From a virus, in IMG/VR virus record IMGVR_UViG_3300042352_001346, positions 16,909-80,908 of that record: a DNA stretch of 64,000 nucleotides; one strand, given 5' to 3'. Shown here in pieces: positions 25,227 to 58,296 of the stretch (its first letter is position 1; the number at the start of each line of letters is the position of its first letter). A program made the position numbers and the translations under genes. The notes beneath the pieces are model-generated. The model ran no database searches and was not told the DNA's origin. It saw only the letters and a program-made list of their open reading frames with translations.

Positions 25227-25321
25227 TTTGGAGATTTTCTCTTTTTTTCGTACCTTCGCAGGAGAAATTAAGAATACAAATATATTAATTTCTAATTGTA
25301 AATTAACTAAAATTGTAAAAA
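25227..25321 (+). promoter_or_regulatory. Promoter and conserved leader of the helicase gene
   Basis: TTTGG (25227-25231) and TACCTTCG (25251-25258) form the promoter. The ~60-nt leader holds two ATTGTAAA copies (25295-25302 and 25312-25319), the second ending 2 nt before the ATG. It closely resembles the leaders before 44797, 58297 and 61650. Confidence 0.8.
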
Positions 25322-26971: not shown

Positions 26972-27874
26972 ATGTTTTCATATTGTTGTATTAATACAGA
27001 ATTGCAAAAGCAAGGAATAACTACAAATCGTACTATACGTAAAGACCGTTTTGAAAAAGAAGGTTTAAAATTATGCGGTGAATTAGCTTTAGCTAATTTA
27101 ACTGATTTAGTAAAAATTTTAAGTTGGAATAATGAAAATAATATAAAATGTTTTCGTTTAAGTTCAACTATATTTCCTTGGTCTAGTCAATATAATATAG
27201 AAGATTTACCTAATTATAATTGTATAAAAGAACAATTAATATTTATAGGTAAATTTATTCAAATACATGATATTCGTGTATCTTTTCATCCTGACCATTT
27301 TTGTGTTTTAGGTTCAGATAGAGAAAAAATTGCTTTGAAAGCTGCAAAAGATATTAATTTTCATAGTCAATTATTTGATTTAATGGGATTAGAACAATCT
27401 CATAAGTATCCCATTAATATACATGTAGGTACTACAAAAGGTGGTAAAGAAAAAGCTGCTCTTAGATTTTGTATTGCTTATGAATTATATTTATCCGAAG
27501 GAGCAAAGAAAAGATTTGTAGTTGAAAATGACGACCATCCTACAGAGTTTACTCCGGAAGATTTATACAATATGATTTGGCGTAAAATACAAATTCCTAT
27601 AACATTTGATTATTATCATAATAAATTAAATCCAGGCAAATTAAATGAAATGTCTGCTTTTAAATTATGTTATATGACTTGGAAAAATGTTAAACCTTTA
27701 TTTCATTACTCAAGTTCAATGAGAGAAGAATATAAAGATAATGCTATAAAAATAACTGCTCATAGTAATTATATTTTAGAAGAAATTAATATTTATTTAG
27801 ATGTAGATATTGATTTAGAAGCAAAAATGAAAGAACAAGCAGTATTAAGGTATTTAAATACTTTTAATAAATAA
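26972..27874 (+). CDS. uvsE: UV damage endonuclease (UvsE/UVDE family)
   Basis: This 300-aa TIM-barrel endonuclease matches UVDE: FRLSSTIFPW (~residue 63-72), SFHPDHFCVLGS (~103-114), INIHVGTTKGG (~147-157) and VVENDDHP (~187-194). These His, Glu and Asp residues bind the metal ions. UVDE nicks DNA 5' of UV photoproducts and some abasic sites. The length is normal. Its stop codon shares a base with the next ATG. A phage copy would let infected cells repair UV damage without host nucleotide excision repair. Confidence 0.85.
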   Translation: MFSYCCINTELQKQGITTNRTIRKDRFEKEGLKLCGELALANLTDLVKILSWNNENNIKCFRLSSTIFPWSSQYNIEDLPNYNCIKEQLIFIGKFIQIHDIRVSFHPDHFCVLGSDREKIALKAAKDINFHSQLFDLMGLEQSHKYPINIHVGTTKGGKEKAALRFCIAYELYLSEGAKKRFVVENDDHPTEFTPEDLYNMIWRKIQIPITFDYYHNKLNPGKLNEMSAFKLCYMTWKNVKPLFHYSSSMREEYKDNAIKITAHSNYILEEINIYLDVDIDLEAKMKEQAVLRYLNTFNK

Positions 27875-28713
27875 TGAAAATTTATATAGAATATCAAGCA
27901 CTTTCAGATAGAGAAAATATAATTGCTGAAATATCTCTAGATAAAAATTTTTATGAAAAACTTGATAAAGAAGATAGATTTGGTAAATATTTACAAGATA
28001 CTTATGATTTAGAAATTATACAAGGGTGGGAGGTTTTTAATGAATCATTTACTGAAAGATTATATTCTCTTTTAGTACAAACTTTTAAAGATAAAAATAA
28101 AATTGCTGATTTTTTAAAAGTTTGTCAAGAATTAAAAGATTATTTATTTAAATTTCCATATAATGAAAGAATTGAATTTTTAACAAAAATGTTTTCTCTA
28201 TTATATAAAGCTTATAATCAAGGAGGTAATTTTGTTTTAAATCAAATTAATTCTGCCATAGATAAAGAAAAATTTGGAGAGTTTGAAAAATCTTCGTACC
28301 TTTGCGGTAATAAAAAAATTGTAAAAATGTCTAAGAATTGTAAATTTGTAAGAACTGTAGGACTTCAAAATCTAGAAGGTTATCATATTAAAGTAAAATG
28401 TTCTACTTGTGGCATTGAAGCTATTTATTTTCAAGAAAATGAAAATGATATTCGTTTATTTAATCCAATTACAAACGAATATGATATTAAAGTTGACTCA
28501 ACAACTGTATGTGAAGGACAAAAGTATCTTGATGATAAGAAAAAATCAGATGCTTTAAAATCAATTCAAATACGTAAAGGTAGTACTGTAAAAACAAACG
28601 ATTTTATAGGTAAAATTATAAAATATAATTCAAATGTTGATATTTGGATTGAAGCACATAATGGTCCTCAACCTATTAAAAAAGAACAAATTATTGAATT
28701 AATAGAGTATTAA
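27874..28713 (+). CDS. Long reading frame containing an internal promoter; probable gene fusion
   Basis: This open frame of 279 codons starts at the last base of the uvsE stop codon. Residues 1-~135 are a helical, charged unknown protein. Residues ~134-151 are encoded by a near-perfect promoter plus an ATTGTAAA leader. From residue 152 (ATG at 28327) a second, different protein follows, with a CSTCG zinc-knuckle-like motif. The simplest reading is that a gene lost its stop codon and now reads through the promoter into its neighbour. A long fusion and a short independent protein could both be made. Confidence 0.5.
   Translation: MKIYIEYQALSDRENIIAEISLDKNFYEKLDKEDRFGKYLQDTYDLEIIQGWEVFNESFTERLYSLLVQTFKDKNKIADFLKVCQELKDYLFKFPYNERIEFLTKMFSLLYKAYNQGGNFVLNQINSAIDKEKFGEFEKSSYLCGNKKIVKMSKNCKFVRTVGLQNLEGYHIKVKCSTCGIEAIYFQENENDIRLFNPITNEYDIKVDSTTVCEGQKYLDDKKKSDALKSIQIRKGSTVKTNDFIGKIIKYNSNVDIWIEAHNGPQPIKKEQIIELIEY
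28273..28326 (+). promoter_or_regulatory. Promoter embedded in a coding frame
   Basis: TTTGG (28273-28277) and TACCTTTG (28297-28304), 24 nt apart, are followed by ATTGTAAA (28318-28325) and an ATG at 28327. The match to this genome's consensus is among the best in the window, yet the whole element lies in an open reading frame. Confidence 0.75.
28327..28713 (+). CDS. Probable independent product of the internal promoter
   Basis: This 128-aa protein starts at the ATG directly after the ATTGTAAA leader. Residues ~20-60 contain KVKCSTCGIEAIYF, a possible half zinc knuckle; a later Cys (TTVCEG) may complete it. The C-terminal ~50 residues form a small basic beta domain (STVKTNDFIGKIIKYN). This start is better supported by promoter and leader than the upstream one at 27874. 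Function unknown. Confidence 0.6.
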   Translation: MSKNCKFVRTVGLQNLEGYHIKVKCSTCGIEAIYFQENENDIRLFNPITNEYDIKVDSTTVCEGQKYLDDKKKSDALKSIQIRKGSTVKTNDFIGKIIKYNSNVDIWIEAHNGPQPIKKEQIIELIEY

Positions 28714-54335: not shown

Positions 54336-55511
54336 ATGATACAAGCCAAAGTAATTGCAGATAGTAAAAATGAGTTCGATAATCGTATAACTACCATGGT
54401 AGTTACATTTCCTAGAATTATTCTTGCAGAATTAAATACTCATAGAATGTTGAGTAAAAATAGTGCAAGTAGTAGAGCAATACCTACTAAAAAAATGATT
54501 AAAATGATATTAGATAATCCTTTCGTACCAATTGCTTGGCAAAAAGAACATACCGGTATGCAAGGATTTGAATACTACGATAATGAGGAAAAATTTTCTA
54601 TTATCGATTTATCTGAAATTATGTTTCAGAGATTGAGAAAAATGTATATTAATACAGAAGATAATACAGAAGAAGAAATAAGTGATGAAGTATTAACTTT
54701 TTATAATAATATTTTCTTAAACTTTAGAGGTAGTTATACATTAAATGAATTTTGGTTATTAATAAGAAATAAAGTACTTGAGTGTGTATTATTATTATAT
54801 TGTTTAGGAGTAACTAAACAACTTTGTAATCGTTTATTAGAACCTTTTATGTGGCATACAGTAATTGTAACAGCTACAGAATGGGAAAATTTCTTTCATT
54901 TAAGATGTCCTCAATATTGGTGTAATACAGATAATTCAATTCATAAAAGTAAAAAAGATTGGATTAAGCATCGTAAAATTGAATCAGATAGAATAGATAA
55001 ATTAGATGAAGGTCAAGCTACTGTATCTTTTTCTAAAGGATTTACAAAACCAACTAATGAAGAATGGTTATTTTTAAATAAAGGTCAAGCAGAAATTCAC
55101 ATGATGGCTCTTGCAGAAGCTATGTATGATGCTCTTAATGAATCTACTCCTAAAAAACTTAAAGCAGGTGAATGGCATATTCCATTTGGTGATAGTATTA
55201 AAGAACCTAAATTATATTCTTTAATGGCTAGTAAATATGGTGAAGGATTACCTCAACCTGAATGGAGTAGTAAGTTTTGGAATATGAAAATTCAAATAGC
55301 AATTGCTATGTGTGCAAGAGTATCTTATACAGTTGTAGGTGAAGAAGGTAAAGAACCTAATTATGAAAATGATATTAAACTTCATGATAGACTTTTAAAA
55401 AGTGGACATGCTTCTCCATTTGAACATGTAGCACAATCATCTAATATAAATGAAATAAGTGGTAATTTTTTAGGAGGATGGAAACAATACAGGAAAATAT
55501 TGGGATTATAG
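54336..55511 (+). CDS. thyX: Phage-type ThyX-like thymidylate synthase (permuted motif order)
   Basis: This 391-aa FAD-dependent thymidylate synthase-like protein makes dTMP from dUMP. The ThyX signature that binds FAD/dUMP, THRMLSKNSASSRA (~residue 35-48), lies at the N-terminus, while HASPFEH (~356-362) and GWKQYRK (~380-386) lie at the C-terminus, the reverse of cellular ThyX. This permuted order is known in phages. The C-terminus is short and overlaps the next gene by 34 nt, perhaps trimmed by that insertion. Confidence 0.78.
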   Translation: MIQAKVIADSKNEFDNRITTMVVTFPRIILAELNTHRMLSKNSASSRAIPTKKMIKMILDNPFVPIAWQKEHTGMQGFEYYDNEEKFSIIDLSEIMFQRLRKMYINTEDNTEEEISDEVLTFYNNIFLNFRGSYTLNEFWLLIRNKVLECVLLLYCLGVTKQLCNRLLEPFMWHTVIVTATEWENFFHLRCPQYWCNTDNSIHKSKKDWIKHRKIESDRIDKLDEGQATVSFSKGFTKPTNEEWLFLNKGQAEIHMMALAEAMYDALNESTPKKLKAGEWHIPFGDSIKEPKLYSLMASKYGEGLPQPEWSSKFWNMKIQIAIAMCARVSYTVVGEEGKEPNYENDIKLHDRLLKSGHASPFEHVAQSSNINEISGNFLGGWKQYRKILGL

Positions 55512-56182
55512 AAAATAAAATTTGTATTATTTGTAATATAGAAAAAGAATCAAATGAAGATAATTTTCCTTATTATAGAGGTAATGATAATATTTTAAAA
55601 TTTAGAAATGTATGTAAAATTTGTAGAAATAAACAAAAACAACAATCTAAAATAAATTTAGGTTTAATTAAAGGTGAAGATAATAGTTTCTATTCAAATC
55701 AATTTTTAATAAAAGCAAATTTAATACATGATAATAAATATAATTATTCTAAAGTTATTTATAATGGAGTAAGAAATAAAGTAGAAATAATTTGTTTAAA
55801 ACATGGTTCTTTTGAACAAAGACCAAATGCTCATTTATTAGGACAAGGTTGTCCTAACTGTTCAATTTCATTAGGAGAAAATAAAATATTAAAATATTTA
55901 TTAAGTAAAGATATTTCTTTTAAACAAGAAAAAACATTTGATAATAAATTTTGGTTTGATTTTTATATACCTTCATTAAATTTTTGTATTGAATATCAAG
56001 GTGAACAACATTATTTAGAAAATAACTTCTTTTCTAAATCTTTATTTGAAAATAAAATAATTGATAAAGAAAAAAGAAATTTTTTAAAACAACTAAATAT
56101 AAGATTATTAATAATACCTTATACAAAATTTTTGAAAATAGAAGTAATAATAGATAATTATTTAAAATATATTAATGGATAA
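55478..56182 (+). CDS. Homing-type endonuclease at the thyX junction
   Basis: In this 234-aa protein zinc knuckles CIICNI and CKICRN (residues ~17-50) resemble the nuclease at 47182. The middle (residues ~65-130, with KYNYSKVIYNG, CLKHGSFEQRP and GCPNC) matches a repeat found in phage homing nucleases. The C-terminus is a Vsr-like core with FWFDFYIPSLNFCIEYQGEQ (D and E residues of the metal site). It overlaps thyX by 34 nt and the next gene by 8 nt, so it fills the gap between them with no spare sequence. Confidence 0.72.
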   Translation: METIQENIGIIENKICIICNIEKESNEDNFPYYRGNDNILKFRNVCKICRNKQKQQSKINLGLIKGEDNSFYSNQFLIKANLIHDNKYNYSKVIYNGVRNKVEIICLKHGSFEQRPNAHLLGQGCPNCSISLGENKILKYLLSKDISFKQEKTFDNKFWFDFYIPSLNFCIEYQGEQHYLENNFFSKSLFENKIIDKEKRNFLKQLNIRLLIIPYTKFLKIEVIIDNYLKYING

Positions 56183-56489
56183 TTTTCAATGTTCTTGTGG
56201 CAAGACTCATTTTATACCATCTTACAAAACTAAAGTTGTAGATGGTGAATTAGTACATTGTGATAAAAAAAGTGGTTTGCCTTTAAAATGTACTTGTAAA
56301 TCTAAAAAAAATATTTTAATACCAATTGAAAGAGAGGTAGAAGGATTTACAGGTAATATTGGTGTATTTAGTAGTATGTCACTAACTGAAAAACAATCAT
56401 CATTAGCTAAACGTAGTAAAAAACATTCAGATAGATTTGCAAATTTAAATGATGTTAAATTTAATAGTAAAGGAGGTTTTAATTTATGA
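56175..56489 (+). CDS. Small Cys-rich protein
   Basis: This 104-aa protein has an N-terminal zinc-binding pattern (CSCGKTHFIP at residues ~5-14, then CDKK, CTCKS near 30-40), followed by a basic helical tail (SLTEKQSSLAKRSKKHSDRF). It may bind nucleic acid. Unknown family. Confidence 0.45.
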   Translation: MDNFQCSCGKTHFIPSYKTKVVDGELVHCDKKSGLPLKCTCKSKKNILIPIEREVEGFTGNIGVFSSMSLTEKQSSLAKRSKKHSDRFANLNDVKFNSKGGFNL

Positions 56490-56770
56490 GTTACACATTA
56501 GAACAAAAAGCATCTACTCTTGCTTCAATAGGAGGTGTTAAAATTGCTAATATAGGTAATGAATGGTATGTATTTTCAACTTTTAATGAACCTACACTTC
56601 AATCAAAACATATATATCTTGAAGGCAAAAATATAACTAAATTTTTAGATTCAGTACAAACTGATAATGCTACTTCATTAACTAGTACAGTTAATGCTCA
56701 TGTAGAAAATTTACCTAAGGAAAAAAGAAAATTTCATGAAGCTACTCCATGGCAAATATGGATTCCTTAG
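56486..56770 (+). CDS. Small unknown protein
   Basis: This 94-aa protein starts with a 4-nt overlap (ATGA) with the previous gene and ends in TAG just before the GC-rich structured region. No domain recognised. Confidence 0.4.
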   Translation: MSYTLEQKASTLASIGGVKIANIGNEWYVFSTFNEPTLQSKHIYLEGKNITKFLDSVQTDNATSLTSTVNAHVENLPKEKRKFHEATPWQIWIP

Positions 56771-56879
56771 AAAGTTGCGCCGAAAATCTTTTAGTTGCAT
56801 GTGTTGCCACTACGACCCTCTAGACCGCCGTAGTTATTTCTATTGATTTTTTCGGCACCTTCGCTGCAGTTTCATTGAT
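56771..56879 (+). other. GC-rich structured intergenic region with a promoter-like 3' end
   Basis: This stretch is far more GC-rich than anything else in the window. GCCGAAAA (56779-56786) can pair with TTTTCGGC (56849-56856), enclosing a second stem ACTACG/CGTAGT (56809-56814 with 56829-56834). The 3' arm overlaps a promoter-like TTTTTTCGGCACCTTCG, similar to the TTTTTCGTACCTTCG of other promoters here. It could be a regulatory RNA, a leader or an origin-like structure. Confidence 0.45.
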
Positions 56880-56899
56880 TTGTATAGTAGCCTATACAA
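56880..56899. promoter_or_regulatory. Perfect inverted repeat, candidate operator
   Basis: TTGTATAG and CTATACAA are perfect 8-nt arms around a 4-nt spacer, 13 nt before the ATG at 56913 and downstream of the -7-like box. The position is ideal for autoregulation by the next gene's product. Confidence 0.55.
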
Positions 56900-56912
56900 C
56901 CCTTATACTAAT

Positions 56913-57569
56913 ATGAAGAAAAAAATAAGTAAATTTAATAATTCACCATTAACTCAATTAAAAATTGTTGAAGGTTTGTTTAAAGAAGCAAATCTAAAGG
57001 AATTATTATATGAACTTAAATTTTATTACTTATTAAAAAATAAAAACATACAAGGATTTTTTAAAAATGCAAAAATAAAAGTATCTAATTTTTCTCAATC
57101 TTACATTTATAAAATGTTTCAAAAACTAACTAAATTAGGTTGGTTAAAAAAATGTAAAGATGGATATTATTTAATTTCCTATAAAAATTTATTTAATTAT
57201 TTTGGCATTTCTCCTAAAAAGAAAAAAATATTTTGTATTAGCGCAAAGCAAATAGCGCAGTTTGAACTTATAATAGCATTTTTTGAAATTAAACTTAATT
57301 TATTTAGACAAAATTGGTTAGTTAGAAAGTTAATTAAACAGGTATCGATTCAAAAAACTGAACAGGATAAACCGATTAATACCTTTTGCTCTCTATCTTG
57401 CCAAGGAATATCTAATTTATTAGGTTATATTTCTGCTAAAAAAGGTTATGAAATTGAACATGAATTAGTTTCAATGGGTTTAATTAGTATTACTAAAAGA
57501 ATTAGTAAAAGAGGTAATATGCCTTTGATGACTGAAATAATTTGTTTAAAATCATTTTCATTATCTTAA
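56913..57569 (+). CDS. Possible DNA-binding regulator or initiator
   Basis: This 218-aa basic protein has two helical regions like winged helices: residues ~50-90 (SQSYIYKMFQKLTKLGWLKK, helix-turn-helix then a wing-like GYYLISYK) and residues ~160-205 (CQGISNLLGYISAKKGYEIE then LVSMGLISITKR). I chose the ATG at 56913; an upstream TTG would run through the inverted repeat. Context (operator-like repeat, structured leader) fits a transcription or replication regulator. No family recognised. Confidence 0.5.
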   Translation: MKKKISKFNNSPLTQLKIVEGLFKEANLKELLYELKFYYLLKNKNIQGFFKNAKIKVSNFSQSYIYKMFQKLTKLGWLKKCKDGYYLISYKNLFNYFGISPKKKKIFCISAKQIAQFELIIAFFEIKLNLFRQNWLVRKLIKQVSIQKTEQDKPINTFCSLSCQGISNLLGYISAKKGYEIEHELVSMGLISITKRISKRGNMPLMTEIICLKSFSLS

Positions 57570-57625
57570 TGGAAATTCCCATGCTTAGGATTGGTTAATT
57601 AGGAAATAAATAAAATACACAATAA

Positions 57626-58141
57626 ATGGTTATATATATTTATACAGATGGAAGTTGTTGGCACAAAACAAGAGAAGGAGGTATTGGTATAAATTTATTA
57701 ATAAAAGAAAATGATAAAGTAATTTTACAACAATCATTTTATAAAGGTTTTTATGATACTACTATTAATCGTATGGAATTGTTAGCAGTTTTATTTGCTT
57801 TAAAATTAATTAATAACCCAAATGTACAAATTAATATTATATCAGATTCTGAATATGCAGTTAATTGTACTAAAAAAGGAATTAATATTAAAAATGGTAC
57901 ATATATTGAATATAGAATAGATTATAAAAATAAAGATATAATAGATATATTGTATAACCAAATTCAATATTTTACAAATTTAAATATATCTTGGACGAGA
58001 GGACATGATGGGAATGAAAATAATAATATTGCTGATAAATTAGCTTCAATTGCTTATCATGATAGTAAAAATAATAAAATAAAAGATAGTGGTTATTTTA
58101 CTAAAGATGTAATAAATGATATAAAACTTTTTAAAAAATAA
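57626..58141 (+). CDS. rnhA: Ribonuclease HI
   Basis: This 171-aa protein has all catalytic motifs: IYTDGSC (~residue 4-10, first Asp), RMELLAVLFAL (~48, Glu), IISDSEYAV (~74-82, second Asp) and WTRGHDGNENNNIADKLA (~122-139, His and last Asp). It cuts RNA in RNA-DNA hybrids and would remove primers. The length is normal. A hairpin directly follows the stop codon. Confidence 0.88.
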   Translation: MVIYIYTDGSCWHKTREGGIGINLLIKENDKVILQQSFYKGFYDTTINRMELLAVLFALKLINNPNVQINIISDSEYAVNCTKKGINIKNGTYIEYRIDYKNKDIIDILYNQIQYFTNLNISWTRGHDGNENNNIADKLASIAYHDSKNNKIKDSGYFTKDVINDIKLFKK

Positions 58142-58143
58142 AT

Positions 58144-58174
58144 ATATTTGTATTAAAATTATTATTACAAATAT
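58144..58174 (+). terminator. Hairpin after rnhA
   Basis: A 9-bp stem (58144-58152 with 58166-58174) and a 13-nt loop, 2 nt after the rnhA stop. A second hairpin follows at 58187-58215 (8-bp stem AAATCTCC/GGAGATTT with a T run), which overlaps the following promoter. Confidence 0.65.
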
Positions 58175-58186
58175 AGAAAAATTTTT

Positions 58187-58296
58187 AAATCTCCAAGTTT
58201 TTTCTTCGGAGATTTTTTCGTACCTTTGTTAGAGAATTAAGGGTTACAAATGTATAAACTTAATTTAAAATTGTAAAAGTTTAAAAATTGTAAAAA
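58187..58296 (+). promoter_or_regulatory. Terminator-promoter overlap and tandem ATTGTAAA leader
   Basis: TACCTTTG at 58221-58228 is the -7 box; the -33 region has no TTTGG but reads TTCGGAGATTTTTTCG, close to the consensus. The leader holds ATTGTAAA at 58270-58277 and 58287-58294 and ends at the ATG at 58297. The hairpin at 58187-58215 overlaps the promoter. Confidence 0.7.

Follow-up and report, generated by a model that had tools for sequence, protein, structure and literature searches.

Among described systems, the nearest to the region considered here are the operators of autoregulatory phage repressors of the repressor/Cro type, the sigma-ABfr promoters of Bacteroidota and the structured phage non-coding RNAs held in Rfam; no usable comparison for a phage regulator region of this kind was found in the literature. 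Sections of PMC6847099 and PMC2483708 describe the Bacteroidota promoter type, with TTTG at -33 and TAnnTTTG at -7. The window (i.e. the whole 64,000-base stretch of phage DNA analysed) represents bases 16,909-80,908 of an 80,908-base IMG/VR virus record, and the locus of interest is a 142-nt gap in front of an open reading frame (ORF) for a 218-aa protein. As at repressor/Cro-type operators, a short perfect palindrome lies directly before a gene with a putative helix-turn-helix product, whereas the present locus has only one site, its protein is unlike theirs and larger, no promoter is recognised, and the operator itself is putative. The gap also contains CACCTTCG in the context TTTTTTCG, as do the strong sigma-ABfr-type promoters at 25251, 44739 and 61576 of the same contig, and its box includes the T-run and CTTCG; however, the -7 box has C for the first T and no TTTGG precedes it at -33. 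The likeness to the Rfam RNAs lies in a multi-branched fold that is possible on the - strand, but nothing in the window matched an Rfam family at gathering score, the region itself giving chance-level matches only (E of at least 3.1).

The intergenic gap and its promoter context

The gap runs exactly from the TAG of a 94-aa ORF (stop at 56770) to the ATG of the 218-aa ORF at 56913, thus occupying positions 56771-56912 (Table 1). The sequence-only reading had described a GC-rich stretch of 110 nt with nested stems that stands out from its surroundings. This was borne out with respect to composition, as the GC content is 0.427 at 56771-56880 against a window mean of 0.242, and no other 110-nt stretch of the window is as rich as 56760-56869 (0.455; next independent peak 0.418). 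The stems are likewise present as inverted repeats, while the + strand fold proved no better than that of shuffled sequences (see below). Codon use in all six frames of the gap differs from that of the phage (GC3 of 0.35-0.43 vs 0.069) and all six score negative; additionally, the + strand is rich in pyrimidines, unlike a coding strand, with 189 of 80,800 windows being as low in purines. A candidate gene in the + frame 56757-56912, which starts from ATG 56757 and specifies a hydrophobic peptide but is interrupted by a single amber codon, was rejected on its GC3 (0.35 vs 0.069). The ends of a transposable element or cassette were similarly rejected, there being no direct or inverted repeat of at least 7 bases between 56690-56800 and 57530-57680. 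The genome is compact, and most of its other long gaps hold, as judged by eye, a promoter or a terminator.

The contig encodes phage proteins, namely a terminase-like ORF (identified by tblastn against phage records) and ThyX, RNase H and endonuclease VII (identified by family search). Nearly all of its genes lie on the + strand, and the sole - strand ORF of at least 120 aa in the whole contig (128 aa) is antisense to a large + strand ORF. By its promoter type, the 80.9 kb phage contig looks Bacteroidota-like: the pattern TTTGG-N13/26-TAnnTT(T/C)G has 15 matches on the + strand and two on the - strand (in 80.9 kb), and a clear promoter family, TTTGGA-N18/19-TA(C/T)CTT(T/C)G, is apparent. A promoter matrix was built from 12 of the 15 + strand matches, the three taken as intragenic being left out. 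Downstream of several of these promoters, a leader carries AATTGTAAAAA ahead of the ATG. One of the strongest matches, at 28273-28309, lies in frame within ORF 27874-28713, which may represent two genes, the second beginning near the ATG after this promoter. Furthermore, within 58142-58296 a terminator-like hairpin takes the place of the usual TTTGG -33 box and is immediately followed by a TTCGTACCTTTG promoter box.

The promoter-like box that the sequence-only reading had placed in the gap did not hold up, since CACCTTCG poorly matches the promoters that the phage itself uses elsewhere: among 161,698 positions it ranks 190 for the -7 element alone and 4859 for both boxes. A -7 TAnnTTTG is absent, as is a -33 TTTG at a distance of 18-20 nt (best -33 score -13.5), and neither the phage motif TTTGG-N18/19-TAnnTTYG nor a site of the sigma-70 type was found in the gap. 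The search pattern for CACCTTCG was written after the sequence had been seen, and its expectation of zero is therefore no proof. On the - strand no good promoter match was obtained, the best, at 57077, being equalled or exceeded in score at 84 positions.

Table 1. Positions (window numbering) of features at the locus and of the promoters of the contig
Feature	Position	Strand	Remarks
94-aa ORF	56486..56770	+	Upstream gene, stop borders the gap; no family above cut-off
Terminator-like hairpin	56735..56751	-	Inside the 94-aa ORF; tail AAATTTTCTT not a clean T run; 1 found vs 0.1 in shuffles
GC-rich, + strand pyrimidine-rich non-coding stretch	56771..56879		Based on composition and codon use
Outer inverted repeat GCCGAAAA / TTTTCGGC	56779..56856		62 nt between arms
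Inner imperfect inverted repeat ACTACGACCCTCT / AGACCGCCGTAGT	56809..56834		At one position, G-U pair on the - strand and mismatch on the + strand
CACCTTCG	56856..56863	+	Resembles the -7 box of the phage promoters; without first T and without TTTGG at -33
Perfect 8-4-8 palindrome, 20 bp	56880..56899		Unique in contig; candidate operator
218-aa protein	56913..57569	+	One plausible winged-helix segment (about residues 45-95)
Promoter family members (-33 positions)	10684, 20453, 25227, 26922, 28273, 31566, 35240, 39123, 44715, 53712, 61552
Twelfth promoter used for the matrix	-4378		Upstream of the window

The palindrome and the 218-aa protein

The perfect 8-4-8 inverted repeat is exactly as first described: TTGTATAG-TAGC-CTATACAA occurs in a single copy in the 80.9 kb contig, so that a dyad-symmetric site adjoins the regulator gene, ending 13 bp before its ATG. 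The window has no excess of perfect 8-4-8 repeats (five seen against about 6.5 expected from 10 first-order simulations), and the palindrome may therefore be due to chance; the simulated rate translates into a chance of about 1.4% for such a repeat in a random stretch of 142 nt. Among the repeats listed, with overlaps counted, those with at least two G/C per arm and loops of 0-10 were commoner than simulated (40 vs 12.5). The nearest variant of the palindrome in the window differs from it at three positions, and at least as many matches as in the actual sequence were obtained in 36 of 100 shuffles. The palindrome is thus suggestive by its position and not by its rarity.

The exact arms around any 4-nt centre were found in 26 IMG/VR stretches, two of which are this phage. 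An operator common to relatives was rejected, as inspection of the flanking ORFs by eye revealed no relative of the 218-aa protein in the other 24, and its best non-self match in a phmmer search against all ORFs of the collected loci had an E value of 0.28. At one of these unrelated loci (L058), the palindrome with the same 8-base arms is also intergenic, at a distance of 69 bp from a short ORF whose product appears to resemble Cro.

The 218-aa product is a putative DNA-binding protein, as judged from weak family matches and a low-confidence predicted structure. Residues 32-93 match winged-helix regulator models of the TrmB, Nse1 and Sar types (with Pfam E values of 0.003 to 0.5, none of which passes the cut-off), and a single-sequence AlphaFold model, while poor overall (pLDDT 44), has a pLDDT of about 76 at residues 70-90, where the order is helix-helix-strand-strand. 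Foldseek returned no match with E <0.69, several CprK/CRP-type regulators being among the weak ones. Two winged-helix-like segments had been proposed for this protein; one is plausible on the above grounds, while the second found no support, the C-terminal segment yielding no convincing winged helix when folded alone (pLDDT 49) and chance-level matches only when used as a query (E of at least 3). Among 69 genes, the 218-aa gene has the fourth most atypical codon use and the fourth highest GC3, which fits, without proving, a possibly recent acquisition.

In IMG/VR, the 218-aa gene was found only in two near-identical contigs, whose identity to the window is 99.99% in each case over 10.6 kb; phages, plasmids, 34 whole records of related viruses and the species genomes scanned yielded no relative of its product. 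Relatives reached through ThyX comprised 39 viral and two genome loci; with the two near-identical contigs left out, tblastn detected no relative of the 218-, 94- or 104-aa proteins in the remaining 37 viral loci. These relatives are too distant for comparison of the gap, their DNA similarity to the window not extending beyond matches of 17-19 nt, and TerL as a query identified no relative in IMG/VR. Similarly, the gap DNA matched nothing among RNA families, phages, plasmids or related viruses beyond the near-identical records. Upstream of this locus, a homing-endonuclease-like gene (55478-56182; phrog_559 HNH) directly follows thyX, and a distant phage (L006, 9041-9724) has a different homing-endonuclease-like gene, apparently GIY-YIG-like by its motif, in the same place, as if genes of this kind repeatedly landed at the 3' end of thyX.

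Folding by strand

The stems behave mostly as composition predicts on the + strand and show a modest excess on the - strand, because both the z-scores and the energy scan differ between strands. The + strand RNA fold of 56771-56880 has a z-score of 0.06, with 99 of 200 dinucleotide shuffles at least as good, and inclusion of the palindrome gives -1.44; the corresponding single-stranded DNA (56771-56880) gives -0.92. The - strand fold reaches -1.86 for the GC-rich part alone, -2.65 with the palindrome and -2.32 for a longer stretch. When 1825 windows of 140 nt were scanned per strand, 109 on the + strand and two on the - strand were at least as stable as 56765-56904, and additional G-U pairs arise in both the inner and the outer stem on the - strand only. 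The structured RNA envisaged in the sequence-only reading is thus not supported on the + strand, where the fold is no more stable than composition predicts, and is possible on the opposite strand, for which neither an Rfam match nor a good promoter was obtained. The pattern of the inner stem occurs in 10 stretches, two of which are this phage; the other eight are without the outer stem and appear unrelated by eye, one of them (L089) apparently resembling the end of a tRNA gene. A one-sequence covariance model found only itself among 51 sources and 25 records.

Weighing of the readings

We tentatively prefer to read the 142-nt gap as a control region of the ordinary kind, lying between genes and serving a phage regulator, with the palindrome likely the operator of that gene; to this reading as a whole we give somewhat less than even weight. 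The GC peak, the unique palindrome, the winged-helix-like segment, the atypical codons and GC3, the unremarkable + strand fold and the non-coding nature of the stretch all point in this direction, while the weak protein matches, the lack of a structural match, the failure to recognise a promoter in the gap and the lack of a flanking direct repeat of at least 7 bases marking an insertion point away from it. The 218-aa regulator would bind the palindrome as a dimer and, when bound, would limit its own transcription by single-site autoregulation; alternatively, the candidate operator may serve another repressor. The GC-rich part would be a stretch whose composition differs, perhaps introduced together with the 218-aa gene, and not an RNA fold of the + strand. 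The autoregulated switch originally suggested is compatible with the findings, in that the unique palindrome ends 13 bp ahead of the ATG and the product has one winged-helix-like segment. Nearly as likely as a control region is a chance patch of odd composition, in which neutral foreign or decaying DNA would carry the stems and palindrome by accident and the gene would be transcribed by read-through from upstream. The absence of a canonical promoter, a + strand fold equal to shuffles, the chance rate of perfect 8-4-8 repeats and the confinement of matches to near-identical records all speak for such a patch; however, most other long gaps hold a promoter or terminator, and the palindrome is placed where operators usually sit.

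That the - strand yields a structured RNA, about 90-170 nt in length and complementary to the end of the 94-aa gene, is unlikely: the stability of the fold on this strand, its additional G-U pairs, the pyrimidine-rich + strand and the terminator-like hairpin read from 56751 to 56735 argue for it, but the best promoter match is poor, the GC-rich part alone folds with a modest z-score, Rfam offers no match and the covariance model recovers nothing but itself. A more elaborate version is less probable still, namely a new small - strand RNA with a three-way junction and a palindromic UCUAGA loop able to pair with a second copy, which would act in antisense on neighbouring phage genes and would have been acquired with the 218-aa regulator. 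We consider it only slightly more probable that the palindrome is an mRNA leader hairpin tuning translation of the 218-aa protein; an 8-bp stem does form in the predicted leader, ending 13 nt before the ATG, and part of PMC6847099 reports that translation in Flavobacterium is tuned by mRNA structure, but the fold of the whole leader, itself a prediction, is matched in stability by shuffles (z 0.15). It is highly improbable that the site is a replication origin at which the 218-aa protein would act as initiator, a possibility also raised in the sequence-only reading. Several inverted repeats beside a DNA-binding-like gene and RNase H one gene downstream would suit an origin; however, the cumulative GC skew, computed as had been proposed, rises across the window without a turn, no 11-mer occurs in at least three copies within 1.4 kb around it, DnaA-box-like words are absent for several kb, and the GC-rich composition is unfavourable to melting.

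If the operator reading is true, the locus would provide one testable regulator-operator pair for poorly known AT-rich phages, and would otherwise matter little. The clear promoter family of the contig is the more useful by-product, for the annotation of such phages.
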